Source: Pseudomonadales bacterium (GTDB lineage: Bacteria > Pseudomonadota > Gammaproteobacteria > Pseudomonadales > Azotimanducaceae). From it: 64,000 bases of DNA. A program made the translations under genes and the position numbers. Of the stretch, positions 6,669 through 20,140 are shown one piece after another (within the stretch, counting starts at the first letter, position 1; the number at the start of each line of letters is the position of its first letter). The DNA lies in contig JANQMF010000031.1 in NCBI GenBank assembly GCA_028280225.1, positions 1 through 64,000 on the forward strand, read 5' to 3'. Under the pieces are notes generated by a model. The model was not told the origin of the DNA. It ran no database searches and saw only the letters and a program-made list of their open reading frames with translations.

Positions 6669-6755
6669 GCCCAGGTGGTGAAATTGGTAGACACGCTAGC
6701 TTCAGGTGCTAGTGGGGGTAACCCCGTGGAGGTTCAAGTCCTCTCCTGGGCACCA
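6669..6755 (+). tRNA. tRNA-Leu (anticodon CAG)
   Basis: The 87-nt gene includes an encoded CCA (6753-6755). The acceptor stem GCCCAGG (6669-6675) pairs with CCTGGGC (6745-6751). The anticodon loop TTCAGGT, inside the CTAGC/GCTAG stem, gives anticodon CAG. A long variable arm and GGTTCAAGTCC in the T-arm confirm a class II tRNA-Leu. In Pseudomonas, as I recall, a tRNA-Leu lies at this same place between purA and rnr. Here about 15 kb of other genes separates it from purA, and tRNA genes are common integration sites. I searched by eye for a second copy of its 3' end at the far side and found none. Confidence 0.97.
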
Positions 6756-8045: not shown

Positions 8046-8618
8046 ATGAACGACAACCTTGACAAGAACATTCAGTTTTGGAATACCTGGCAAAAACAAT
8101 CCCACCAATTATCAAAATACTGCCTTAAACTGCTAAACCGGCACACTGAAGATGCCGAGGATGCCCTCAGTTTAGCGGCTATAAAGGCTCATGAGTCTTT
8201 TTGCAGCGGCCAAGTGGAAATTCGCAACATAAACGCGTGGCTTTACACCATTACGCGAAACTGTTGTATGGATGTGCATCGAAGCCGCGACAGGCGATTC
8301 ACCCGCTTTAGCCCGGTTGCGGATTTTGAAGACTTTGCAGAAATGCTGATTGATGAAAACACACCCGAAGAGTCCCTTATCGGAGATGATGTCCGGTCAA
8401 CCTTGTTTTCTACCTACCGGGAGTCTTCCATGTTGCAACAGAAAGTTGTTTACATGCGCCTGGTCCGCGACCGGTCCCACAAAGAAATTGGCACTCTTTT
8501 GGGGATGACATCAGAAAGCTCCCGCAAACATCTTGAGGCCTTTCGTAAACGGTTCAGAATTAATCTTGCCCTGGCCAATACACTAGACACAAAAACCTTC
8601 CCGACCTCAATAATATGA
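8046..8618 (+). CDS. ECF-like RNA polymerase sigma factor
   Basis: This 190-residue protein looks like a sigma-70 family factor of the ECF type. Region 2 covers about residues 20-90, including EDAEDALSLAAIKAHESF and the promoter-melting segment NINAWLYTITRNCCMDVHR. An acidic linker follows, and then region 4 (about 120-180), with QQKVVYMRLVRDRSHKEIG and a helix-turn-helix in LGMTSESSRKHLEAFRKR. ECF factors usually control a few linked genes, so the adjacent unknown cluster is the obvious candidate target. No anti-sigma gene with a membrane segment follows. A 75-codon frame overlaps its stop but looks non-coding. It is convergent with the gene at 8820, with a nested palindrome between. Confidence 0.8.
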   Translation: MNDNLDKNIQFWNTWQKQSHQLSKYCLKLLNRHTEDAEDALSLAAIKAHESFCSGQVEIRNINAWLYTITRNCCMDVHRSRDRRFTRFSPVADFEDFAEMLIDENTPEESLIGDDVRSTLFSTYRESSMLQQKVVYMRLVRDRSHKEIGTLLGMTSESSRKHLEAFRKRFRINLALANTLDTKTFPTSII

Positions 8619-8729
8619 TTGATATTTCTCAGGTTTGCCGATCCGGCATCCCACCCTCAAATATTTTTGCCGGTTTGGTAACAAAACGAAAGGTATCCGC
8701 CGGCACGGAAGAACAAGCTGGATGCGCAA

Positions 8730-8799
8730 GATGGTGCCCGCCACGCCGGATCAATAAAGCGCAATTCGGAAAAGCGCAATCCGGATGTCAGGCACCATC
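8730..8799. repeat. Nested REP-like palindrome
   Basis: Outer arms GATGGTGCC (8730-8738) and GGCACCATC (8791-8799) enclose inner arms CCGGA (8746-8750) and TCCGG (8780-8784), with AAAGCGCAAT repeated directly inside. It lies between two convergent genes, where it could act as a bidirectional terminator. Short nested palindromes of this kind resemble the REP elements spread by RAYT transposases. It is not the same family as the GGGGTCAGACCCC repeat. Confidence 0.65.
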
Positions 8800-8819
8800 A
8801 TCTATGCCTATATCAGACC

Positions 8820-9167
8820 TTACAGGCTTCTTGCCGCCTTAAGAATATCGTCAACCACTTCAACTACCTTAACAAACTTTCGTACATTCTCCACGTTTTT
8901 GTTTAAACTGCTGATTCTGGATCTAAGCTTAGCGTTACTGCCTTTGATATCTTCGCGCAGTTCGTCAAAGGTTCCAACCCAATCCCTAACCATATTGTTA
9001 AGCAACCGGTCTATTTCACGGGAGACCTCGTTAGACATCCTCCTTACTTGTCTGGCATTCTCTTCCTTGCCGTGCAATGTCATACGCGCCTGCAAAAGCT
9101 GCAGCCTGCGCCTGACCAGAATAAGCCTGTCCAGTATATCTTCTTTGTCGCATGTATCTTGAATCAA
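8820..9167 (-). CDS. Small coiled-coil protein of unknown function
   Basis: This 115-residue protein is almost wholly alpha-helical by pattern. It runs from ILDRLILVRRRLQLLQARM through EVSREIDRLLNNMVRDW to SRISSLNKNVENVRKFVKV, with hydrophobic residues at heptad-like spacing. It has no signal peptide, membrane segment or cysteine pair. It is not a family I recognise. It is the last gene of the leftward run, 44 bp after the lipoprotein gene at 9212, and probably shares its transcript. It may be a partner or scaffold for the long helical lipoprotein; that is inference from neighbourhood and shape only. Confidence 0.6.
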   Translation of the reverse strand: MIQDTCDKEDILDRLILVRRRLQLLQARMTLHGKEENARQVRRMSNEVSREIDRLLNNMVRDWVGTFDELREDIKGSNAKLRSRISSLNKNVENVRKFVKVVEVVDDILKAARSL

Positions 9168-9211
9168 CTTAAAGCCCTCACGTCTTGAGAATTGAAAAAC
9201 GGAACAATTAC

Positions 9212-10480
9212 CTAATCCAGGTGATATCGATCAAGGATGACATCCGCCTTCCTGCCGAAATCCGACGCAGCCCGCTCCAGTTCCTTAGCCTGTTCAAGCA
9301 GACGCTCAACCTCTAACTCAGCGTAGTTTGCTTCCTCATCCAACGCGGCCGCATGTTGAAACTTGGTCTTGTCTTGCGGATCGTTCATCGCTTCGATTAA
9401 CGCACTCTTCGCCTCAAACCTGAGCTCTGCGGCATCCGCCGTGGCTATCCGTGACTTAGCGAGCAAAGCTTCAGCCTTTGCACTTAAGCGGCCACCGCGC
9501 GCCCGTAGCGCCTCGGAGCGGCTGATCGCCAGTGACTGGGCGTAAGCCGCTTTGAGTCTTTTACCCACTTCAAATAGGCCGGCAATGCCTGACAGGCTTT
9601 CCTCACCGTTTCCGGCAACGGCAACCAGGTTGCGGTGAGCAACCGGTAGGGTGCTGTAAACGTCCCTAAGCTGCACTAACACTTGAGCTTCGCGAATGTA
9701 TCTGCGATTCAGGATAATCAGGTCTGTCACGGCAGTTTTCCGTTTCGACTTAACCAGTGACTTCTGATACAGCCTGTCGAATGCCTTTTCGTGCTCATTG
9801 AAATTGAGCCTGGCCACCAGATCAATCGCATCCAGCATATTCGTGCAAAACCGTTCTATGCGGGTCTGGTTGTGGCTGAGCGCCTTGTGCAGGTGGGCTC
9901 GCTTGTTTTTTCTTAAATAAGCAGCGGCGGCCTCCATTGCCGCGGCTGAAAAGAACTTGCCTTTTGCCGCTATATCGTCGTGGCCGAGAGTTTTTGCAGC
10001 CGCAGAAACCGCACCATTGAATTCATCCGCCAACTCACGAAATTTCTGCTCCGAAATTCTGTTCGGGTTTGCTAACTCTTGTAACAGTTGCGCGTATTGT
10101 CCCAAAGCAAGGTGTGCCTGGCTTATTCCTAAACGCATTTTTTCTATGGCGAAGAATAGCGGAGAATAGGTTACCGATAATGGATCTCCCAAGTCGGTAG
10201 ATAGGCGCAGGCTTTCCAACTGCTGGAGTGCTGCGTCAATGGCTTCCGGGTTGCGGGAATCCGCATCTTCTAATAACTCGAGTAAGTCTGCCTTAAAGCG
10301 CAGCTCCGACCGTGGTGCCAACTCTGCAAGCGCCTTATTAATTCCTTCTCCCAGCACACGGGTAGACCCGGCAAATTCATCAAACGGTTTGTGCGGAACC
10401 TGGCTGCAAGCCATTAAAAGAAGCGCCGCGGTTAGAGTGCTCAAACCCCTGCACAACAATTGTGTTAGTCTAAAGTTCAA
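9212..10480 (-). CDS. Putative outer-membrane lipoprotein, long helical
   Basis: I chose the TTG at 10480 because an AGGGGGA ribosome site lies 8 nt upstream and the product then starts as a lipoprotein signal (MNFRLTQLLCRGLSTLTAAL), ending in LLLMAC before SQVPHK. This gives 422 residues; a TTG at 10510 would add ten. Serine after the lipidated cysteine, rather than aspartate, fits sorting to the outer membrane. The rest is rich in Ala, Leu, Glu and Lys and looks like long helices, with clear coiled-coil character near the end (EEANYAELEVERLLEQAKEL). No enzyme motif is seen and the family is not recognised. It sits between the SET-domain gene and the small coiled-coil gene in the leftward run. 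Confidence 0.75.
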   Translation of the reverse strand: MNFRLTQLLCRGLSTLTAALLLMACSQVPHKPFDEFAGSTRVLGEGINKALAELAPRSELRFKADLLELLEDADSRNPEAIDAALQQLESLRLSTDLGDPLSVTYSPLFFAIEKMRLGISQAHLALGQYAQLLQELANPNRISEQKFRELADEFNGAVSAAAKTLGHDDIAAKGKFFSAAAMEAAAAYLRKNKRAHLHKALSHNQTRIERFCTNMLDAIDLVARLNFNEHEKAFDRLYQKSLVKSKRKTAVTDLIILNRRYIREAQVLVQLRDVYSTLPVAHRNLVAVAGNGEESLSGIAGLFEVGKRLKAAYAQSLAISRSEALRARGGRLSAKAEALLAKSRIATADAAELRFEAKSALIEAMNDPQDKTKFQHAAALDEEANYAELEVERLLEQAKELERAASDFGRKADVILDRYHLD

Positions 10481-10569
10481 TGGACAAATCCCCCTGAATA
10501 TCAATACCAAATAACTCTTAGACGAGGGGTGCCCAAAGGTGTGAGTACCGGCTTATCGCCGCGCGGATG

Positions 10570-11925
10570 CTATTGCGAATATCGCAGGGGGAGAATGCAA
10601 TCTTCGATATATTTTTCCCAGGCGCTTTGTTCCGAATTACTGATCAGACCCTGGGCAACTTTCCGTTTCAGTACTTCACCGTCCATCTGCAAAAGCCGGA
10701 CACAGAACATTGCGCACCGCCGCGTGAAGTGCAGTACCTCCTTTTCGTGCATTCTTACGCTGATAGCGTTACGAAAGGCAGGAGAAAGACCCTTGCCGTC
10801 AAGTACAAGACGGTCCTCGGAAATAGACGTATCAAATCCATCCAGCGCCCTTTTTGTCAGACGAACCAGCTGAAGCAACGCCAGCCTTTCATTAGCAATA
10901 GAAATGGGCAATTCCGCCACCGGCAGCATACCGGCGCCCGGCCCTTCCTGGGGGGTCATTGAGGAAAGTCTCAACACGGACAACAAGGCGGCATGAGTCT
11001 TGTTAAACCTACGCGAAATGCGATAGTGCCGCGGTCTTGAGTCTTCCCTGAAAGGAGTTTCCCAATGGATTTTCTCACCGGCCAGGGGTAGTCGTATCGA
11101 TGCCAGGTTGGCCGGGTTATCCTCGAGAATAAAGCCATAACTGTTATACAGGCGGCTGTTACATTTGCTGCCATAGCTGATGGTAATTTCGTCACCGGGG
11201 TCCAGCGGGTAAAGGGCGCACAACTGAAACTGGTTCGATGCATCGCAATAACCCCACCTGGCAGAAGGGTTAACGGCATGGTTACACATATCCGCAAGCG
11301 GCACCAACCCCCGGGTGCTTGTTCCATCAACATAAAACCGGAAAATTCGTGAGGTCACCGCCATTCGCGCCCAAATAAATTGCTCCAGGGGAGCAACCCA
11401 TGGCAGGGTAGTGTGCTCGGCATATCGTTCATAGTCCCCCAACAACGCCAGCCGCCTTTCCTTCTGAAGTTCAAGGGCGTGGCTGCCTTTTAACAAGCCG
11501 AGTATTGGGTGGCCCTCCTCGTGGGTCACCGGTATGTGATCGTAACGCTTGGGCAACCCTTCTATATAGGGGCGCCAAAAAGAATGGGTGACCGTTTCTT
11601 GCAGCAAAAATTCGGCAAATAGCGAGTGAACACTACTGAAGTCCGCCTGAGACCGGAGGCTGCGGTCAATCAGTTGTTCGCTGATAATGCACCGCCCGGG
11701 TATTCCAAGCAAAAGTGCGTCTTTGTCCACGCCATTACGCACATGCAGCGCATGGGCGCCATTTTCTTCACCGTGCAAATAAACGTTGTGTGCAATTCCC
11801 CCTGATCCCCTTACCCAGTTTATTAGGTTGTGCGCTGCTTTGTTATAGATCCGACTGTCCTCCAACAGGCTAAACAGGTGTTTAGGGAGGACGCAGAAAG
11901 TGAGAAAACGTGAAGCATCAAGCAC
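10570..11925 (-). CDS. SET-domain protein, predicted protein-lysine methyltransferase
   Basis: This 451-residue protein has the layout of the SETD3/SETD6/Rubisco large-subunit methyltransferase group. It has a glycine-rich first part (VRGSGGIAHNVYL, about 38-50), SFWRPYIEGLP (115-125), LVPLADMCNHA (207-217, the catalytic NH motif), DPGDEITISYG (242-252) and NSRLYNSYGFILEDN (256-270). A helical substrate-binding region follows to the C-terminus. Such enzymes transfer methyl groups from S-adenosylmethionine to lysine (or histidine in SETD3) in proteins. They are typical of eukaryotes and uncommon in bacteria. The start is GTG at 11925 and is uncertain; a later start is possible. Candidate substrates next door are the Lys-rich protein at 13171 or the DUF2589 proteins; this is inference. 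Confidence 0.8.
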   Translation of the reverse strand: MLDASRFLTFCVLPKHLFSLLEDSRIYNKAAHNLINWVRGSGGIAHNVYLHGEENGAHALHVRNGVDKDALLLGIPGRCIISEQLIDRSLRSQADFSSVHSLFAEFLLQETVTHSFWRPYIEGLPKRYDHIPVTHEEGHPILGLLKGSHALELQKERRLALLGDYERYAEHTTLPWVAPLEQFIWARMAVTSRIFRFYVDGTSTRGLVPLADMCNHAVNPSARWGYCDASNQFQLCALYPLDPGDEITISYGSKCNSRLYNSYGFILEDNPANLASIRLPLAGEKIHWETPFREDSRPRHYRISRRFNKTHAALLSVLRLSSMTPQEGPGAGMLPVAELPISIANERLALLQLVRLTKRALDGFDTSISEDRLVLDGKGLSPAFRNAISVRMHEKEVLHFTRRCAMFCVRLLQMDGEVLKRKVAQGLISNSEQSAWEKYIEDCILPLRYSQ

Positions 11926-12083
11926 CTTATCTCAGCCGATGAAGCAACCAATTTCCCGATGTATTTGGACCGGATACAAAGACCGGAAGCCCACAACAAC
12001 GTGGGAAGGGTGTGACCGGTGGCTACGTCTGAGAATCTACAAAGGGGAGGATTACCCACCGAAGCAGGTTAATCCAAAATTGC

Positions 12084-12620
12084 TTATAGGGATTCGTCTA
12101 CCGGAATGTGTCTGGGCTCCACCGAAGTACAAAGAATGTCCACCAGTTTTTTCCAACCCTCACCTACGTCTGCCCCTTTGGCTAACAAGTTCACTTTGTA
12201 GGTAGCGGAAGTACTGCTTTCTCTAAGCATATCGTTGCTGGTGGTTACACGGCCGTAGAAGACCGTTTGGTTGGTGTTTTCTTCCGCAGAGTCCTTCGAC
12301 CCGCGTTTGCGCTGTTCGCTGATTTCAACCGTGAATTCCACAGATAGATCTTCGATTTGCAGTTGCGCAAAGGAAATAAAGGAAAGCAGCGGCACGCTGA
12401 TCTGCACCTCATGATTGCGCAGTTGTCCCCCGGCTTCAACAATGGGCCGTTCCATGACCACATCGAGGGTACGTGTTTTTCCACCTTTTTTAAAACCAAA
12501 GGTGCGCATGGTACCCAGCAAAGAGCTTGCTGAGCGAGTCTGCGCCTCCTGGGCCGCTTCTAAAGGCGCGCCGATCAGACTGGCCAGAGGTAATGAAGAT
12601 AAAGTCTGCCTAACCGCCAT
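12084..12620 (-). CDS. DUF2589-family protein, paralog A
   Basis: The 178-residue protein matches the pattern I know for DUF2589. It has an N-terminal LPLASLIGAPLEAAQEAQT helix, a strand-rich centre with ISVPLLSFISFAQLQIEDL followed by SVEFTVEIS, a polar variable loop, and a conserved end TYKVNLLAKGADVGEGWKKL leading to a short helix. The function is unknown. A clear AGGAGA site precedes the ATG at 12620. It is 62 bp downstream of paralog B and 158 bp upstream of the SET-domain gene in the leftward run. A third paralog (15076) is on the opposite strand. There is no signal peptide, so it is presumably cytoplasmic. Confidence 0.8.
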   Translation of the reverse strand: MAVRQTLSSLPLASLIGAPLEAAQEAQTRSASSLLGTMRTFGFKKGGKTRTLDVVMERPIVEAGGQLRNHEVQISVPLLSFISFAQLQIEDLSVEFTVEISEQRKRGSKDSAEENTNQTVFYGRVTTSNDMLRESSTSATYKVNLLAKGADVGEGWKKLVDILCTSVEPRHIPVDESL

Positions 12621-12682
12621 GGATATTCTCCTTTAACGAGCGCAAACAGGATTGCATCTATTTGTACGTCTTATACCAGGGG

Positions 12683-13114
12683 TTAGAGAGTACCCTGCAC
12701 CAGTTTCCCGTTCAGCCGTATCAGCGCCTCGGGTGGTGTTGCCGCTGCCAGTTCCAGTTTCAGTTTTACGGAACTGGAAGTGCCGGCTTCCGCCGGGGTA
12801 CGCCCGCCCATGTTCAGAACAAGCTCACCGGTTTCATCACCATCAGCATCAACCTCCGCCTCAATGTCCAGCAATATCCGGTCAAGCTGAACCGACTTCA
12901 TGGGGATCAAACTCATAAGCGGCACCTGCACGGTTGCACTTTCCGCCCCGTCGGGGCCGGGGAGTGAAACGGTTAAGTAGCGCGGTTCATAAACCCCATC
13001 CTTTTCATCAAACAGATTTCTCAGATCCTTTAAGTGTTGGGCCTTGGTCTGTTCGGTTGCCGCCACCACGGCGTCGGTGATGGTTGTCGCCAACTCTTTG
13101 AGGCCTTTTTTCAT
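12683..13114 (-). CDS. DUF2589-like protein, paralog B (divergent)
   Basis: I chose the ATG at 13114 (MKKGLKELATTITDAVV) because GGGGGA precedes it at 4 nt; an ATG at 13126 adds four residues but has no ribosome site. The 143-residue product has an N-terminal helix followed by RYLTVSLPGP and the strand pair VQVPLMSLIPMKSVQLD/RILLDIEAEVD. The pair aligns with the VPLLSFI.../PPLLSLV... core of paralogs A and C. It lacks their LPLASLIGAPL-type N-terminus and ends after NGKLVQGTL. I take it to be a divergent member of the same family. It sits between the gene at 13171 and paralog A in the leftward run. Function unknown. Confidence 0.65.
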   Translation of the reverse strand: MKKGLKELATTITDAVVAATEQTKAQHLKDLRNLFDEKDGVYEPRYLTVSLPGPDGAESATVQVPLMSLIPMKSVQLDRILLDIEAEVDADGDETGELVLNMGGRTPAEAGTSSSVKLKLELAAATPPEALIRLNGKLVQGTL

Positions 13115-13170
13115 TTGATCCCCCATACAAAGGTGTATTTTTTACGCCTGCAAATCGCAGGGCTATCTAT

Positions 13171-13827
13171 TTATCTTTTCTTCTTTTTAGCGGATTTTGA
13201 GACACCTTTGTCATCTGCCCCAGCCGCTTTGTTCGCCATGGTTTTAGGTTGATTCATTGCCGCCAGCTTAGACCCTTGAACAGAGTTGCGGATCATCTGA
13301 TCCCTGCGAATGGTATCTTCACTCAACGCATTGGATAGAATGGCAAAGTGCTCACGCACTACCATCACAAGTTCGGAGGACATCTCCCCGGAAATTGCGT
13401 TCATTACATCCTCAAAATGGCTCAAGTTGTGTACCGAAGAGCGAAGAAAGTCTTCAAACGAATCAAACCCTTCTTGAGCTTTCTTTTTTGCCAGGCTTGC
13501 GCGGCCTCTTGAGCCGATGAGTTGTTCAAACTCCAACCAATACTCTCTGTGTGAAGCCAGCAATATACGCGCATCACCCTCTTCATCTTCATTGATCTTT
13601 CCATCAGCGGACTGCGCCTTAAGCATGCTCATATCGATTAATTTCAACGACTGATCCACCTTTCTTTTCAGCTTGCTGACTACTGACGATTGTGCTTTCT
13701 CGAGCTTACTCTTACCCTTGATCGCATCCTCATCCATCCGATCGAGCACATAGGCCACAACCAGAACCTCCTTAAGCTTAATATGCATTTCCAGCAAGGT
13801 TTGATATTTGTCCACATAAACTGACAT
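13171..13827 (-). CDS. Hypothetical helical protein with Lys-rich tail
   Basis: The ATG at 13827 (MSVYVDKYQTLLEMHIKLK) is preceded by GGAGA at good spacing; an upstream in-frame ATG at 13923 lacks one. The 218-residue product is predominantly helical and highly charged. It contains KSKLEKAQSSVVSKLKRKV, SHREYWLEFEQLIGSRG and a segment FEDFLRSSVHNLSHFEDVM, then an Ala/Lys-rich tail ending KSAKKKKR. No known domain is recognised. It is the first gene of the leftward run and is divergent from the membrane protein gene at 14004, with 176 bp between the starts. The tail would be a natural methylation target for the SET protein encoded downstream, but that is conjecture. Confidence 0.65.
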   Translation of the reverse strand: MSVYVDKYQTLLEMHIKLKEVLVVAYVLDRMDEDAIKGKSKLEKAQSSVVSKLKRKVDQSLKLIDMSMLKAQSADGKINEDEEGDARILLASHREYWLEFEQLIGSRGRASLAKKKAQEGFDSFEDFLRSSVHNLSHFEDVMNAISGEMSSELVMVVREHFAILSNALSEDTIRRDQMIRNSVQGSKLAAMNQPKTMANKAAGADDKGVSKSAKKKKR

Positions 13828-14003
13828 GTCTTCTCCGATTCCGTGACTATTAGATAAAGTTGAGACGCGGTCAGATGCAACGTGTGAGGTGTGCCAGACA
13901 TTTCCATAAACCCGCCGGTTCACGCTAAAAACCGTACTCCGTCATTAATCAACCTCAACCTACTAACTTGTACCACACCCAAAAGTGGAGCGGAGAAATC
14001 AGC
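13828..14003. promoter_or_regulatory. Divergent control region of the two cluster halves
   Basis: The 176 bp between the two divergent start codons must hold the promoters of both gene runs. Leftward, TTGCAT is followed at about 18 bp by TATCTA, a weak sigma-70-like pair. Rightward, TTCACG precedes the A+T-rich CATTAAT by 18 bp. Neither is convincing. I did not find an obvious motif shared with the region before the sigma factor gene that could be an ECF promoter. Confidence 0.35.
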
Positions 14004-14885
14004 ATGGACAAACAAGACCGGAGCGGAAACATAAAACTGAACAGGCAGGGGCTTGGTGGGCCTACACACCAGTCCCGTAAAAGTCACTTGTTGGCAGCAT
14101 TCAGGAAAAACAAGAAAGCTAAAAAACAAACAACATCCCTGGATGTCTGCGAAGTAGAGACGCTGGTGTTGTGGGCCACCGACCGCGGCATTGCCGGTGA
14201 TGAGAAACCTGGTGTCATCGAAAGAATCATTAACCAGCTTACCGAATTCGAAGAGGCAACAACGCCGGACAAACAAAAAGCCTGCATTAAGGCCTTGATG
14301 CCTCTGTACGTAGAGCTGATAGAACTGGTTAGACAACGGGAGAAACGTGACATCAACGGCAAGCGCATCCTGCAATGCCGCAACCGTTTCCGATATTTAT
14401 GGGGCATCTACTCCGTATCCATCTTATCGTTATTGGCCGCGTTATTCGTCGAGGGAGGCCTGCATTTGACACAGGTTTATCCCAACAGTCTGTATCACAT
14501 CGATATACACGGAGTATCTTTGCCCGTGGACTTTAATCTGGCCGCCCACGTTCTGAATATGATTGGGCCGTTTTTCTGGGGTGCACTTGGATCCTGCGTC
14601 TACCTGTTAAAGAGAATCTCCGATAAAGTTAACAACTTAACTTTCGACCAGGATCAACTACCCGGCTGGCGTACCAGAGTACTGTTGGGGTCCTTGTTAG
14701 GCGGTGCGGTTACTTATCTGTTCAGTCCTGCCATACCCTATTCAGTGGTAAGCGAGGGTGTAGTCAGAGAACTTGGACCTAATGTTATCGCCTTCACCGC
14801 AGGCATTGGTACAAAGGTCATTTACACCGCAATAGAAACCGTTATCGAGTCTGCTGCCAGGAAGATCCGAAAGTACAGGATTTAG
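14004..14885 (+). CDS. Hypothetical membrane protein with basic cytoplasmic domain
   Basis: The ATG at 14004 follows GGAGA at 7 nt and gives 293 residues. The first 125 residues are soluble, with a strongly basic start (HQSRKSHLLAAFRKNKKAKK) and a helical part containing VIERIINQLTEFEEA. Four probable membrane segments follow: about 131-150 (YLWGIYSVSILSLLAALF), 179-203 (AAHVLNMIGPFFWGALGSCV), 225-241 (RVLLGSLLGGAVTYLF) and 259-281 (VIAFTAGIGTKVIYTAIETV). The C-terminus is basic. The family is not recognised. It heads the rightward run and is likely to be the inner-membrane anchor of whatever the cluster builds. Confidence 0.7.
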   Translation: MDKQDRSGNIKLNRQGLGGPTHQSRKSHLLAAFRKNKKAKKQTTSLDVCEVETLVLWATDRGIAGDEKPGVIERIINQLTEFEEATTPDKQKACIKALMPLYVELIELVRQREKRDINGKRILQCRNRFRYLWGIYSVSILSLLAALFVEGGLHLTQVYPNSLYHIDIHGVSLPVDFNLAAHVLNMIGPFFWGALGSCVYLLKRISDKVNNLTFDQDQLPGWRTRVLLGSLLGGAVTYLFSPAIPYSVVSEGVVRELGPNVIAFTAGIGTKVIYTAIETVIESAARKIRKYRI

Positions 14886-15075
14886 CCGGTTGGAAAATCT
14901 TAGTCTAAGGCATCAACCCGAGCGCGTCGTCAACCAGCCATCTACTTGATAACAGCCACATACAACACACTTAGTACGCGGCTTATTCTCACACCATATC
15001 GGCAGCGTCGTCATAGCTATGAGCCCGGCTGCATGCCGGAGCTAACCTCCCCCTCCAATTTATAAAGGATTTCAC

Positions 15076-15657
15076 ATGGCAAAGAAAAGAGACAAAGACC
15101 CATTCAGGCATATCAGCGCCATCCCAATTGGGCAGCTGATTTATCAGCCACTAAAGGCGATTCATGAGTCCAACGAACTGTTGGTTGATCATTACCTGGA
15201 TTCCGTGCGAACCCTGGCATATCGTAAGGACTCAAAGGGTAGACGAACCAAGGTTAGAACCCTGGACATGGAGTTAGAACGGCCCATAGTGCGGGGCAAC
15301 GGAACCCAGGGTACCCAGACCATTGAAGTTAAGCCTCCGCTGCTAAGCCTGGTCACTATCAATTCGTTGATGGTCGAAGAAGCAACCATCGATTTTAATA
15401 TCGAAGTTACCACCATGGATGAAAAAACCACCTTGAACGAAGCTGCACTCAGCACGAGTGCTGGCTACGGGGCTTACTCCATGACCGGCAAACTGACAAC
15501 CCGTACGGAAAAAACAAGAAAAACGGATATGACCGCCAAGTACACAGTGAATGTTGTAGCAAAACAGCAAGAACCCGCTGAAGGTATGGGCAAGTTGACC
15601 GAACTATTGTCTTCCGCAGTAGAACCGGTAGAAATAGGCATGGTTGAACTAACCTAG
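15076..15657 (+). CDS. DUF2589-family protein, paralog C
   Basis: The 193-residue protein has the full DUF2589 pattern: ISAIPIGQLIYQPLKAIHES near the N-terminus, TLDMELERPIV, the core PPLLSLVTINSLMVEEATI followed by DFNIEVTT, then a Ser/Thr/Gly-rich loop and the end KYTVNVVAKQQEPAEGMGKL with TELLSSAVEPVEIG. It aligns with paralog A over its whole length. AAAGGA precedes the ATG. It lies 190 bp after the membrane protein gene and is followed by a strong hairpin terminator at 15669-15691. The function of the family is unknown. There is no signal peptide. Confidence 0.82.
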   Translation: MAKKRDKDPFRHISAIPIGQLIYQPLKAIHESNELLVDHYLDSVRTLAYRKDSKGRRTKVRTLDMELERPIVRGNGTQGTQTIEVKPPLLSLVTINSLMVEEATIDFNIEVTTMDEKTTLNEAALSTSAGYGAYSMTGKLTTRTEKTRKTDMTAKYTVNVVAKQQEPAEGMGKLTELLSSAVEPVEIGMVELT

Positions 15658-15668
15658 CCGATTTTCCT

Positions 15669-15691
15669 GGGGCTGTTTCTCAGCCCCTTTT
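15669..15691 (+). terminator. Rho-independent terminator after DUF2589 paralog C
   Basis: The stem GGGGCTG/CAGCCCC has seven base pairs around the loop TTTCT and is followed directly by TTTTCCC. It lies 12 bp beyond the stop codon of the gene at 15076. The next gene starts only 24 bp further on, so it may be expressed by partial read-through. Confidence 0.8.
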
Positions 15692-15714
15692 CCCATTAAA
15701 GGACCGCAACAACG

Positions 15715-16194
15715 GTGGAAAAATCCAACCCCGCATCTCCCCCTGACGAAGTTTGCCAGAAAATTCTGGAAGCACTTGTACCCTATATTCACCGCTGCCT
15801 GAACAAGTGGAAATACTTCCCACCCAAGGCGGTCTATCTCAGTGAACCGGACGTCACAACGGAACTGCTTGCTGATGGCCAGGCACTGGTTGACAACTGG
15901 TCGGCAGAGGTGGATAGCTTAAGGAACAAGCTGGCGGAAATATGCCGGCAAACACAGGTGATCGCCGGCGGTTATACCTATTTTGGTCAAAGCACGGATT
16001 CCAGGAAGAAGGTCAACAAAGGTGTTATTGTTATAATGGTTGAGCAACGCAATGGCCCTTGTTGGCTGCTGACACAAGAAGTTCGCGGGATAGCGGGCAA
16101 AAAACGCCTATCCTATGCGGACTTGGAAACCAGTGAAGCTGAACCTCACCTCTTTGTTAAATCGCTTGAGGAAAAAGCATCAAAAACTAAGTGA
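15715..16194 (+). CDS. Hypothetical protein in DUF2589 cluster
   Basis: The start is GTG at 15715 with AAAGGA 11 nt upstream, giving 159 residues. The N-terminal half is helical (DEVCQKILEALVPYIHRCLN, then ADGQALVDNWSAEVDSLRNK). The second half looks strand-rich (VIAGGYTYFG, KGVIVIMVEQRNGPCWLLTQ), and the tail is charged. There is no signal peptide or membrane segment, and the family is not recognised. It follows the terminator of paralog C closely and is the last gene of the rightward run, so it is probably a component or regulator of the same system. Confidence 0.65.
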   Translation: MEKSNPASPPDEVCQKILEALVPYIHRCLNKWKYFPPKAVYLSEPDVTTELLADGQALVDNWSAEVDSLRNKLAEICRQTQVIAGGYTYFGQSTDSRKKVNKGVIVIMVEQRNGPCWLLTQEVRGIAGKKRLSYADLETSEAEPHLFVKSLEEKASKTK

Positions 16195-16298
16195 AAAACG
16201 GTGTTTCCCGGATTGCGGGTGTATGCAGTTTAGATTTACTTAGATGCAAAACAGGCGCACTTAAGCGCCCGTCTTAAAGGTCGTCAAAGGCATCCGCC

Positions 16299-16664
16299 TC
16301 AGGGTTGGTGGATCTTGATAGGGCCGCGGCAACTGATGGTTATGGTCACTTCTTCGTCAGTACCTTCACCACTGGTTAACACCAAGTCGCCCTGGTCCAG
16401 CTGAATAGAGTTTGAAGCTGATTTTTCCGAAACCAGTTCGTCTCTATTACTGACAACATCCCCAGTGCGCTGCAATGGTTCTTCGGACACCCCGGTCAAT
16501 TCATAATCCATATCAACGTCAGTGTGGCGCCCCACCGGCGCTTCGTCCGGTTGGAATGGTTCTTCAACGTCCACGCTTATGTTGCTAAGGTCTTGGTTCT
16601 CCTTTGGGTTAGTATCCGCTTTACCCTTGTTAGGCTTGAATGGGTTGCTCTTTTTGTTAATCAT
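16299..16664 (-). CDS. Hypothetical acidic, probably disordered protein
   Basis: The 121-residue protein starts at an ATG with GGAG at 6 nt. It begins with a basic MINKKSNPFKPNKGKAD and continues into a polar, Asp/Glu-rich stretch with few hydrophobic residues (VDVEEPFQPDEAPVGRH, then TDVDMDYELTGVSEEP), suggesting disorder. Only the end looks foldable (LVLTSGEGTDEEVTITISC). The family is not recognised. It is convergent with the gene ending at 16194 and 132 bp downstream of the DUF1353-like gene on the same strand. The good ribosome site supports a real gene. Confidence 0.55.
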   Translation of the reverse strand: MINKKSNPFKPNKGKADTNPKENQDLSNISVDVEEPFQPDEAPVGRHTDVDMDYELTGVSEEPLQRTGDVVSNRDELVSEKSASNSIQLDQGDLVLTSGEGTDEEVTITISCRGPIKIHQP

Positions 16665-16796
16665 CTATTACTCCTATTCGGTTTGTATAAGTGGCGGCAA
16701 CAAGGCCCCACTACACCTGACGAGTAGAAACTTAGAATGTGAGGCAGGCAGCGCTCACACGTATCCGGCGCGCACAAAACAACCTTAGAAGGCCTG

Positions 16797-17192
16797 TTAG
16801 GATTGCCTGTGATTTCTCAAGCCAAAACGGCGCACAGCCCAGTAGTGGTACCAGGCGCGGATGGGGTGCATACCATATTCTCTGCATAACTCGTAAAACA
16901 ACCTGTCCGCAAAAGCTTTACCGGGGCCCATGGGCATGGCTCCGGTATGAATAGCCTGATAACAGGCGTCATGAACACAGGACGGCAGGATATTGGTATG
17001 GGTATCAATGCTGGGGGCATCCGTGCCATTCCAGTGATAGTTCTCCGGTATACGCAGGATTGAGTTAATTATCGTCACCCACGGATGTATAACGTCCTGA
17101 CCCGTCCATTCAACCCGTCTTGAATAGTCTCGAGTCAAACGCCATTTCCACCGCGGGTGGTTCGTGCGTGTGTAGATGCGGCCTTCAGCCAT
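16797..17192 (-). CDS. DUF1353-like protein
   Basis: The 131-residue protein resembles DUF1353, a small family often found in phages and mobile regions. The telling segment is YHWNGTDAPSIDTHTNILPS followed by CVHDACYQAI, which matches the family's G-x-DGAS...HD-x-LY core (with TDAPS here for TDGAS), then ADRLFYELCREYG. It is rich in Trp, Tyr and Arg. The ATG at 17192 has no clear ribosome site. It lies at the right edge of the accessory region. Family assignment is tentative, and the molecular function is unknown even for the family. Confidence 0.6.
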   Translation of the reverse strand: MAEGRIYTRTNHPRWKWRLTRDYSRRVEWTGQDVIHPWVTIINSILRIPENYHWNGTDAPSIDTHTNILPSCVHDACYQAIHTGAMPMGPGKAFADRLFYELCREYGMHPIRAWYHYWAVRRFGLRNHRQS

Positions 17193-17359: not shown

Positions 17360-17833
17360 TCAAAGTACCGGCAGCGGCTTAAATAGCATTAACCAGAAGA
17401 TCGCTACAATGGCACACAAGGCGGCCGCACCCAGCCCGGTCCACAAGCGCATCAGTTTTCTGCAGCGGGGGTCCAACTCACTCTTGTCCAATGCCAAAAC
17501 AGCCAGGTTACGTAACTTATACTGAATGAATATAACCGGTACCCAGCACAACCCAACAAATAGAAATAGGCCCGCCACCAGCAGAAACCAGGGAGACTGG
17601 AACGAATAACCCAGACGCAACATCAACAAAACCCCGGTGACCGCCTGGACGATTATTGCCGGCGTGGTAAATAACCAATCCGCCAGGACAACATGCCGTG
17701 TGGTGACCGCAAACGCGGCCGGATTCCCAACCCGATATGCCATGAACATAAAGAAGGCAATGCCGGTGCCGGTTCCCGCGACAACAACCGCACTGCCGAT
17801 ATGCAAGAGCTTTAAAAGGAGATAGCTATCCAC
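17360..17833 (-). CDS. DUF2269-family integral membrane protein
   Basis: The GTG at 17833 gives MDSYLLLKLLHIGSAVVVAG, the usual beginning of DUF2269 proteins; an upstream TTG at 17857 adds eight unlikely residues. The 157-residue product has four membrane segments: LLKLLHIGSAVVVAGTGTGI, the region around WLFTTPAIIVQAVTGVLLML, FLLVAGLFLFVGLCWVPVIF, and GLGAAALCAIVAIFWLMLF. The function of the family is unknown. It overlaps the end of the saccharopine-dehydrogenase-like gene by 8 bp, which implies translational coupling and a shared job. Confidence 0.8.
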   Translation of the reverse strand: MDSYLLLKLLHIGSAVVVAGTGTGIAFFMFMAYRVGNPAAFAVTTRHVVLADWLFTTPAIIVQAVTGVLLMLRLGYSFQSPWFLLVAGLFLFVGLCWVPVIFIQYKLRNLAVLALDKSELDPRCRKLMRLWTGLGAAALCAIVAIFWLMLFKPLPVL

Positions 17834-18959
17834 CTGACTCGCTGAGGTGGTAAACAATACCTAGTTTTGCAGCCTCTTCATCAAATTCATCCATCGTATA
17901 CAGGCCCAAACAAGGATAAGCACCGGTTTTTGGCAAACTTCCCATAATGATCTTCTTAGCCAGGATAATGGCCGACAAGGTTGGAATATAGGGACCAACC
18001 CCATGTTTTGCCAGCAACGTCCACTCCAGCATCTTCCTTCCCCCGTAGGAGTCTTGTCCTACCAGGCGCATCTGCATGCCGCCAATATCGCTTCCACAAC
18101 GATCAAACAAGGTACTGAATCTGGTAATGGGGCCGGTCCACTTCGACCAATCCTTAACCCAGCCCCACTTGGCCAGATAAGCCATGGCCACCATTCCCAG
18201 ATGCAGCAGCGGCACCTCCAGACCCGCTTGAAAGGAGACCGTTTGCACCGGTTGATATCGCTGGGGAAACAATTGCAGGTCCGGGACGTCGACGTTGGCC
18301 AGCCAGCGTTTACCCAGCACCTCACCAAAGTTACGCCGGCGCGGCGACATCCAGCCACGCATATCCCGCCAGCAGCCCCCGAAAAATACCGGATAAGCGT
18401 GCCCGGTATAAGACAAGATGCCACGCACCGTGGCCTCACCCCGCTCCGCCCGGTTACCCGGCACTATGGCGGTATCAATTTCCTCCAGACGAGCAAAACA
18501 GGACAAATAGTGTTCAACCACAACTGAAGACAGACCCGGCACCGAACTTGCGCCGGAAACCACCAGCACATTCTTTTCACGGGCTTGCGAATTCAGGTTG
18601 CCGATATTACTGACAAACCGGCGGTCATCCGCCAGGTCAATATAGTGACACCCCACATCAATACAGGCCAGGGGCACACGATAGTTCTGGCCCTGAAACG
18701 GACCTGCGGTGTGGATTAACAAATCCGGCCTCAATGCCCGCAGCCGGTGCGCAAATCCGCGGTGGTCAACATTAACCGCTGCCGCTTCCAATCCCGCCTG
18801 AACACCCTGCTCCAGCAATGCGCGGCATAACAACTGTGCCTTTGCATGATTGCGGCCCGCGACGATCAGGGTGATTTTGGCAATATCCGCCAATTGCTGA
18901 ACAATGCGTTTGCCGAAGTTGCCGTAGCCGCCAAGAATAAGCACCCTGCTAACTGTCAT
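17826..18959 (-). CDS. Saccharopine dehydrogenase-like oxidoreductase
   Basis: The 377-residue protein begins with a Rossmann nucleotide-binding loop, VLILGGYGNFGKRIVQQLAD (about 6-25). A strand with LLIHTAGPFQGQNY and CIDVGCHYIDLADDR follows, as in the saccharopine dehydrogenase NADP-binding family. The C-terminal half is poorly conserved and includes LTILAKHG-like segments. The true substrate is not lysine metabolism by default; family members in this group are generic NAD(P)-dependent oxidoreductases. It lies between the ketoacyl-synthase-like gene (59 bp upstream) and the DUF2269 gene (overlapping), so it may act on a lipid-derived intermediate; that is inference. Confidence 0.8.
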   Translation of the reverse strand: MTVSRVLILGGYGNFGKRIVQQLADIAKITLIVAGRNHAKAQLLCRALLEQGVQAGLEAAAVNVDHRGFAHRLRALRPDLLIHTAGPFQGQNYRVPLACIDVGCHYIDLADDRRFVSNIGNLNSQAREKNVLVVSGASSVPGLSSVVVEHYLSCFARLEEIDTAIVPGNRAERGEATVRGILSYTGHAYPVFFGGCWRDMRGWMSPRRRNFGEVLGKRWLANVDVPDLQLFPQRYQPVQTVSFQAGLEVPLLHLGMVAMAYLAKWGWVKDWSKWTGPITRFSTLFDRCGSDIGGMQMRLVGQDSYGGRKMLEWTLLAKHGVGPYIPTLSAIILAKKIIMGSLPKTGAYPCLGLYTMDEFDEEAAKLGIVYHLSESGG

Positions 18960-19018: not shown

Positions 19019-20140
19019 TCATCGTTTTTTAACAACAAGCGAACCAATGGAGTAACCGGCACCAAAGGAACAGATCACGCCAAGGTCACCCGGTTGGAGG
19101 TCCTTGTTGTACAAGTGAAAGGCAATCATTGAACCCGCCGAGGCTGTGTTGGCGTATTCGTCCAGAACAATAGGGGCCTCCAGAAATTCCGGATCCCGGC
19201 CCAGCAGGCGCCGTGCAATCAGCTCGTTCATATTAATGTTAGCCTGGTGCAGCCACCACCGCTTTACATCAGATACCGCAACACCGGCTTTTTCCACCTG
19301 TTGGGTCAAATGTTCAGCCGCCATGGGGCAGACTTCCTTAAACACTTTGCGCCCATTCTGGCGGAACAATTTGTCGTCAGCAAAAGGCTGCGCATCCTCA
19401 GCATAGGACAGGTAACCAAAATTGGAGCGTATATTGTTTGAATACTGTGTTAACGCCTGTGTACTGAGCACTTCGTAGCTGTGTACCGAAGTACAGGTAT
19501 CCGCCCGTTCCATAATCGCAGCGGTGCTGACGTCACCAAAAATAAAGTGGCCGTCCCGATCGGTAAAGTTAACCTGAGGCGTGGTGAGTTCAGGATTGAT
19601 CACCAAGACACAGTCCGCAGACCCGGCGGCAACGGCATCATAGGCACGGTGGAGGGCAAATGTGGCCGCGGAACAAGCCACCAGCATATCAAAGCCAAAT
19701 CCCTGAATACCCAACGCCTGTTGCACTTCAATGGCTATGGCGGGATAAGCCCGCTGGGTATAGGCACATGAGACCACAACCATGGCGATATCCGCCGCAG
19801 ATTTCCCGGCTGCATCCATGGCGTCCCGGGCTGCCCTCACCGCCATCTCGGCTTGATGTGACAGCTCGTCATCCGCCCGGGGGGGAATCTTCGGCCGCAT
19901 CCTGTCAACATCCAGAATACCCTCTTTGCAATAGGTATAACGGCGCTTGATACCACTGGCTTTTTCAATAAATTCCGCACTAGACAATGGTTTTTCAGCA
20001 ACTTCGCCGCGTTCAATGGCCTGCGCGTTTTCCTTATTGTATCGCTGAGCGTAAGCATTGTAGGCGATCACCAACTCTTCATTGGTGACATATTCCTGCG
20101 GTTTCCACAGGCCCGATCCACTGATAACTGCCGTTGGCAT
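19019..20140 (-). CDS. Beta-ketoacyl-ACP synthase III-like protein (FabH-like)
   Basis: This is a thiolase-fold condensing enzyme of 373 residues. The catalytic triad is in place: Cys156 in LVACSAATFA, His298 in WWLHQANINMN, and Asn331 in EYANTASAGS. A SGIKRRY segment near residue 62 is typical of KAS III. FabH condenses acetyl-CoA with malonyl-ACP to begin fatty acid synthesis. This protein is longer than canonical FabH (about 317) and belongs to a branch whose members often make specialised acyl chains. It stands without other fab genes, so I do not give a symbol. It is likely in one transcript with the saccharopine-dehydrogenase-like and DUF2269 genes. Confidence 0.88.
   Translation of the reverse strand: MPTAVISGSGLWKPQEYVTNEELVIAYNAYAQRYNKENAQAIERGEVAEKPLSSAEFIEKASGIKRRYTYCKEGILDVDRMRPKIPPRADDELSHQAEMAVRAARDAMDAAGKSAADIAMVVVSCAYTQRAYPAIAIEVQQALGIQGFGFDMLVACSAATFALHRAYDAVAAGSADCVLVINPELTTPQVNFTDRDGHFIFGDVSTAAIMERADTCTSVHSYEVLSTQALTQYSNNIRSNFGYLSYAEDAQPFADDKLFRQNGRKVFKEVCPMAAEHLTQQVEKAGVAVSDVKRWWLHQANINMNELIARRLLGRDPEFLEAPIVLDEYANTASAGSMIAFHLYNKDLQPGDLGVICSFGAGYSIGSLVVKKR

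Follow-up and report, generated by a model that had tools for sequence, protein, structure and literature searches.

A horizontally acquired mosaic island combines neighbouring DUF2589 genes with a SETD3-like methyltransferase in a Pseudomonadales bacterium

The genome of a Pseudomonadales bacterium (Azotimanducaceae; assembly GCA_028280225.1) carries, next to a tRNA-Leu(CAG) gene, a horizontally acquired, mosaic accessory island of 10-12 kb containing three DUF2589 genes, a SET-domain enzyme and an envelope gene pair. The recurrent element of this locus is the DUF2589 pair, and the remaining genes form a combination met only here. The window analysed, a stretch of 64,000 nucleotides (contig JANQMF010000031.1, positions 1 to 64,000), had previously been interpreted from its letters and open reading frames, and this sequence-only reading had proposed an undescribed locus made up of an ECF sigma factor, a SET protein, three DUF2589 proteins, a lipoprotein and a membrane protein. 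All of these components do lie on one island, and the reading frames, strands and families assigned to them agree with our own calls (Table 1), the three DUF2589 proteins, the SET domain and Sigma70_r2 all scoring above their Pfam cut-offs.

The island is variable, poor in GC and flanked by tRNA-Leu(CAG) and a FabH-like gene, with a GC content of 46-53% at about 7-18 kb of the window compared to 54-60% on either side. Between RNase R with tRNA-Leu(CAG) and the orthologue of the window gene at 19019-20140 there are only 1.1-1.8 kb in three congeners (L131, L132 and L129), whereas the same distance in the window is 12.3 kb. DUF2589 was found in none of 36 congeners and the island in none of 39, the genes for the SET protein, the membrane protein, hyp218 and hyp159 being each absent from all 39, while in one congener (G030) the lipoprotein has a distant relative. 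It is the empty site in three congeners, together with the low GC content and the absence of the island from congeners, that identifies the island as horizontally acquired. A search for a repeat of the tRNA 3' end marking the far boundary found none, and the stretch at 17360-18959 may or may not form part of the insert. At the same tRNA-Leu site a further congener holds about 4.2 kb of other content (L133:8928-13162), suggesting an insertion hotspot.

Table 1. Features of the island and its left edge, in window coordinates
Feature	Coordinates	Strand	Basis
tRNA-Leu(CAG)	6669..6755	+	Left edge of variable site; kept beside RNase R in 7/7 congeners fetched
ECF-type sigma factor, 190 aa	8046..8618	+	Sigma70_r2 above Pfam cut-off; TIGR02937 (NCBIfam, ECF superfamily) above cut-off
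115-aa helical protein, lipoprotein partner	8820..9167	-	Homologues directly downstream of lipoprotein homologue in L144, weakly in L140
Lipoprotein, 432 aa	9212..10510	-	Lipobox LLLMAC; homologues in L144 and L140
SETD3-like methyltransferase, SET + Rubis-subs-bind	10570..11925	-	Pfam; F195, A211, N215-H216, Y251
DUF2589 class A, D2	12084..12620	-	Pfam, 83.6 bits; tree
DUF2589 class B, D1	12683..13126	-	Pfam, 37.3 bits; tree
hyp218, 218 aa, no known family, first gene of leftward run	13171..13827	-	ORF call
Candidate ECF-like promoter TGAACC-17-GTCT, before leftward run	13896..13922	-	Motif match, weak
Membrane protein, 293 aa	14004..14885	+	Relatives in 9/340 gammaproteobacterial genomes
DUF2589 class A, D3, sister of D2	15076..15657	+	Pfam, 94.6 bits; tree; structure model
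hyp159, 159 aa, no known family	15715..16194	+	ORF call
121-aa acidic protein, no known family; locus membership uncertain	16299..16664	-	ORF call
DUF1353 protein, phage-associated family; locus membership uncertain	16797..17192	-	Family match; CVHDACY stretch

Within the island, a leftward run of six genes (13827 to 8820; intergenic gaps of about 44-158 bp) and a rightward run of three (14004 to 16194; gaps of 190 and 57 bp) diverge from one another, each containing DUF2589, and the two genes at 16299-16664 and 16797-17192 are more loosely placed. By eye alone, the CVHDACY stretch of the DUF1353 protein recalls phospholipase A2 motifs. In the sigma factor, region 2 and the ECF superfamily model score above their cut-offs and Sigma70 region 4 falls below its own. 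A weak candidate for an ECF-like promoter of the leftward run is the motif listed in Table 1, its only match in the window, where 0.31 would be expected by chance. Good ribosome sites had been ascribed to most of the genes, which holds for about half: they are clear and purine-rich for hyp218, the membrane gene, D2, D3 and the gene starting at 16664, whereas D1, the lipoprotein and the sigma gene have a weak site or none. Searches of Pfam, NCBIfam, PADLOC and PHROGs bore out the absence of any known function for the lipoprotein, hyp218, the membrane protein and hyp159. The lipoprotein also lacked a PDB match, hyp218 had no relatives in 20 DUF2589 loci, 39 congeners or the searches of viral contigs and plasmids, and the defence-protein models of PADLOC returned nothing beyond weak coiled-coil matches to the 115-aa protein.

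DUF2589 (Pfam PF11655; cut-off 23 bits) is essentially unstudied, being mentioned by one paper of the literature searched, and is rare, occurring in three of 370 gammaproteobacterial genomes, all three of which hold at least two copies. Copies are adjacent and on the same strand, with gaps of at most 1.3 kb, in 18 of the 19 genomes and plasmid records, where a further genome that was listed twice counts once; the sole exception lies on a 4.9-kb contig, and such neighbouring copies are found in proteobacteria, Streptomyces and SAR324. The DUF2589 tree, in which long branches leave fine placement unsure, separates a class A from a class B group, with D2 and D3 as sisters in A (support 96/96) and D1 in B (100/99), nearest to Smac51 and Stenotrophomonas. 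The island follows a rule of adjacent A and B copies that emerged from this analysis and stands outside the Pfam definition: D1 (B) lies beside D2 (A), with D3 as an extra A copy. There is also a second set, of weaker copies: those of Streptomyces, SAR324, Woeseiaceae and two further gammaproteobacteria share a separate branch on the A side. Class B may therefore have had more than one origin. Elsewhere, an Oxalobacter genome retains a DUF2589 copy with two stops (G479:C1:1228505-1229032), 0.7 Mb from an intact adjacent pair.

Structure models of two DUF2589 proteins, one of them D3, begin with a long N-terminal helix, continue with about six strands and end in a C-terminal helix, all at low confidence (mean pLDDT 67.5 and 63.5). 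A search of solved folds with these low-confidence models gave nothing significant, and a profile search of the PDB with DUF2589 gave no match. A match in BFVD, A0A516MP19, gave no clue to function; with 28% identity along the full length, it seems to be a further DUF2589 protein. The neighbouring-copy rule itself predicts a heteromeric complex.

In scans of chosen neighbours elsewhere, five different families of peptidoglycan hydrolase turned up around DUF2589, most of them no more than about 2 kb away. On a Vibrio plasmid (L008) an SLT transglycosylase domain and a solute-binding domain are fused in one protein; other Vibrionaceae loci have relatives of it, the one in Veronia lying 7 kb from DUF2589. 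Further loci hold an N-acetylmuramidase (L010), an amidase_3 together with a Tle1-like phospholipase (L018), a GH24-type phage lysozyme (L016), and an M15 peptidase with a patatin (L134). This company suggests envelope-active partners for DUF2589, as a lead noticed after the fact rather than a demonstrated enrichment, and as the island itself contains no peptidoglycan hydrolase, the link from these loci to the island runs via DUF2589 alone. Following DUF2589 in nine loci (e.g. L008:10902-11174) is F1, a conserved protein of about 91 aa with no Pfam family, which was not found in the window. Three other settings are of note in their own right: a viral-contig record in which, by our own reading of its frames, a DUF2589 gene accompanies a contractile-tail-like run (L134:1-10576); a contig of the Oceanospirillaceae that also carries ParB and KfrA genes, where DUF2589 lies directly upstream of sheath, gp19 tube, CIS tube and spike genes (L022:8711-20011); and Pseudoalteromonas luteoviolacea, in which a RebB (R-body) gene lies about 0.4 kb from DUF2589 (L020:9318-9596).

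Among solved structures, the SET protein is closest to SETD3, and it has the features of the SETD3/LSMT type, namely SET and Rubis-subs-bind domains, the NH motif and a catalytic Tyr. By residue numbers counted from the SETD3 alignment, N215-H216 and Y251 are conserved, F195 falls at N255 (where SETD3, an actin-histidine methyltransferase, has its histidine-recognition Asn, a residue absent here) and A211 at W273. Its best structure match, ahead of other SETD3 entries, is PDB 6V62, which is SETD3 N255F/W273A crystallised with an actin peptide whose His73 was replaced by lysine (PMC10819646), and exchange of N255 for A or V is known to raise the lysine activity of SETD3 (PMC6684798). From the F and A at these two positions, which are pocket residues of the lysine type, and the literature on SETD3 variants we predict that the island's enzyme is a lysine rather than a histidine methyltransferase. 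The statement that SET proteins are rare in bacteria finds support for the SETD3 type, the Rubis-subs-bind family being present in one of 342 gammaproteobacteria sampled, with the island's gene as its only member.

Do the genes of the island travel together? The sequence-only reading had taken them for one system and had named, as the outcome that would speak against it, DUF2589 genes never co-occurring with the other families. Within DUF2589 neighbourhoods that is what we found: in 20 other loci, searched over as much as about 10 kb to either side (less on short contigs), there was no homologue at E 0.01 of the sigma factor, the 115-aa protein, the lipoprotein, the SET protein, hyp218, the membrane protein or hyp159. 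The lipoprotein/115-aa pair and the membrane protein also occur separately, so that a single conserved system is not upheld. The lipoprotein and 115-aa genes are a gene pair of their own, present in two other genomes and without DUF2589 nearby in either: L144, from another family of the order, has both in the same order (E 1e-35 and 5e-10), and L140, from a congener, has a lipoprotein homologue (E 1e-9) with a weak 115-aa partner. These loci (L144:8905-10569 and L140:3230-4522) thereby outline a conserved pair of a lipoprotein and a helical protein of about 113 aa, of no known family; an immunity-type gene suspected beside the former was not confirmed by Pfam. Relatives of the membrane protein occur in nine of 340 gammaproteobacterial genomes, and the neighbourhoods fetched contain none of the other locus genes, DUF2589 included, although the joined-query search scored no more than two candidates per genome and absence of weaker parts is therefore not firm. 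These relatives (L040-L048) belong to an unnamed family, scattered among gammaproteobacteria, of membrane proteins of about 310 aa whose C-terminal part is conserved. Viral contigs and plasmids yielded no SET, lipoprotein, membrane protein or hyp218 match.

Our preferred reading, held tentatively, is of a mosaic accessory island in which a DUF2589 A/B core, an envelope module and a SETD3-type enzyme would act together toward antagonism or release across the cell envelope. D1 and D2 would make up the class A and class B unit at the core, to which D3 adds another copy of class A. Chains of the two classes would co-assemble, probably via the long N-terminal helix, and the resulting structural complex would lie in the cytoplasm or close to the membrane. 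From lineage to lineage, this core may be equipped with differing envelope-active partners, such as peptidoglycan hydrolases, lipases or contractile-tail genes; in the island the partners would be an envelope module of the lipoprotein, the 115-aa helical protein and the membrane protein. The SETD3-type enzyme would find its substrate within the locus, methylating a lysine of one of the encoded proteins; expression would probably be limited by the ECF sigma gene; and antagonism or release across the envelope is the most likely purpose. A bolder formulation, which we regard as improbable, would see here a new envelope-active assembly: obligate DUF2589 A/B heteromers as a scaffold shared across phyla, fitted with interchangeable lytic or membrane partners and, in the island, tuned by a SETD3-type lysine methyltransferase that acts on the assembly.

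The main rival to this mechanism, doubtful but to be taken seriously, is that an insertion hotspot has gathered independent accessory genes through repeated insertion, with DUF2589, the lipoprotein pair, the SET protein and the membrane protein doing separate jobs. Their cargo would then be unlinked, as the separate distributions of DUF2589, the lipoprotein pair and the membrane protein would lead one to expect, and other content does follow the tRNA in some congeners; however, the six codirectional genes with their short gaps look like one operon, inside which the SET gene and the lipoprotein pair follow D1-D2, and both divergent runs carry DUF2589. The integrated machine proposed from sequence, in which all products build one envelope-spanning assembly under the ECF factor, draws on the compact divergent layout and the promoter candidate before the leftward run, but appears unlikely given that the combination was not found again in 20 DUF2589 loci, in 39 congeners or, searched by the lipoprotein, in 392 genomes of the order.

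Two further explanations derive from what accompanies DUF2589 elsewhere. That contractile injection particles include DUF2589 proteins as accessory parts, the island being a decayed or minimal form of such a phage-tail-derived or associated unit, seems quite unlikely: the tail genes of L022, the tail-like genes with M15 peptidase of L134 and the phage association of DUF1353 point that way, yet tail genes occur in only two of about 20 loci, D3 had no match in 50,697 phage records, viral contigs gave one DUF2589 locus, and no gp19-type tube protein was matched in the host genome, although control genomes gave no match either and its absence is not fully shown. We give very little credence to an R-body-like ribbon system in which DUF2589 would polymerise or accompany R-bodies and the sigma factor would act like FecI2 of the Pseudomonas aeruginosa reb cluster. 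The RebB gene of L020 and the sigma factor gene included in reb clusters (PMC8322103) recall such an arrangement, but a profile comparison finds RebB and DUF2589 unrelated (probability 0.2), on which basis homology between the two was rejected, and RebB-family structural genes gave no match in the host genome, nor in 15 of the 19 DUF2589 genomes or records.

The island resembles several known systems in part. With the R-body cluster of P. aeruginosa PA14 it shares its accessory nature, a sigma factor gene and small structural proteins, but it is without RebB. One DUF2589 locus (L022) adjoins the sheath, tube and spike genes of an extracellular contractile injection system, genes which the island itself does not have. 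The DUF2589 loci of Vibrionaceae, Stenotrophomonas, Mariprofundus and Smac51 share with the island their neighbouring class A and class B genes, D2 and D3 being nearest to Vibrionaceae members by tree path; they have the 91-aa F1 partner and a peptidoglycan hydrolase nearby, neither of which was found in the island, and the island, unlike them, carries the set of SET protein, lipoprotein and membrane protein. Finally, its methyltransferase shares its two domains, NH motif and catalytic Tyr with the eukaryotic SETD3 and Rubisco LSMT, but is bacterial, sits in an apparent operon and has F and A at the positions of N255 and W273. A bacterial SETD3-type enzyme naturally bearing a specificity swap that was engineered in SETD3 would offer a useful natural test of the choice between histidine and lysine.
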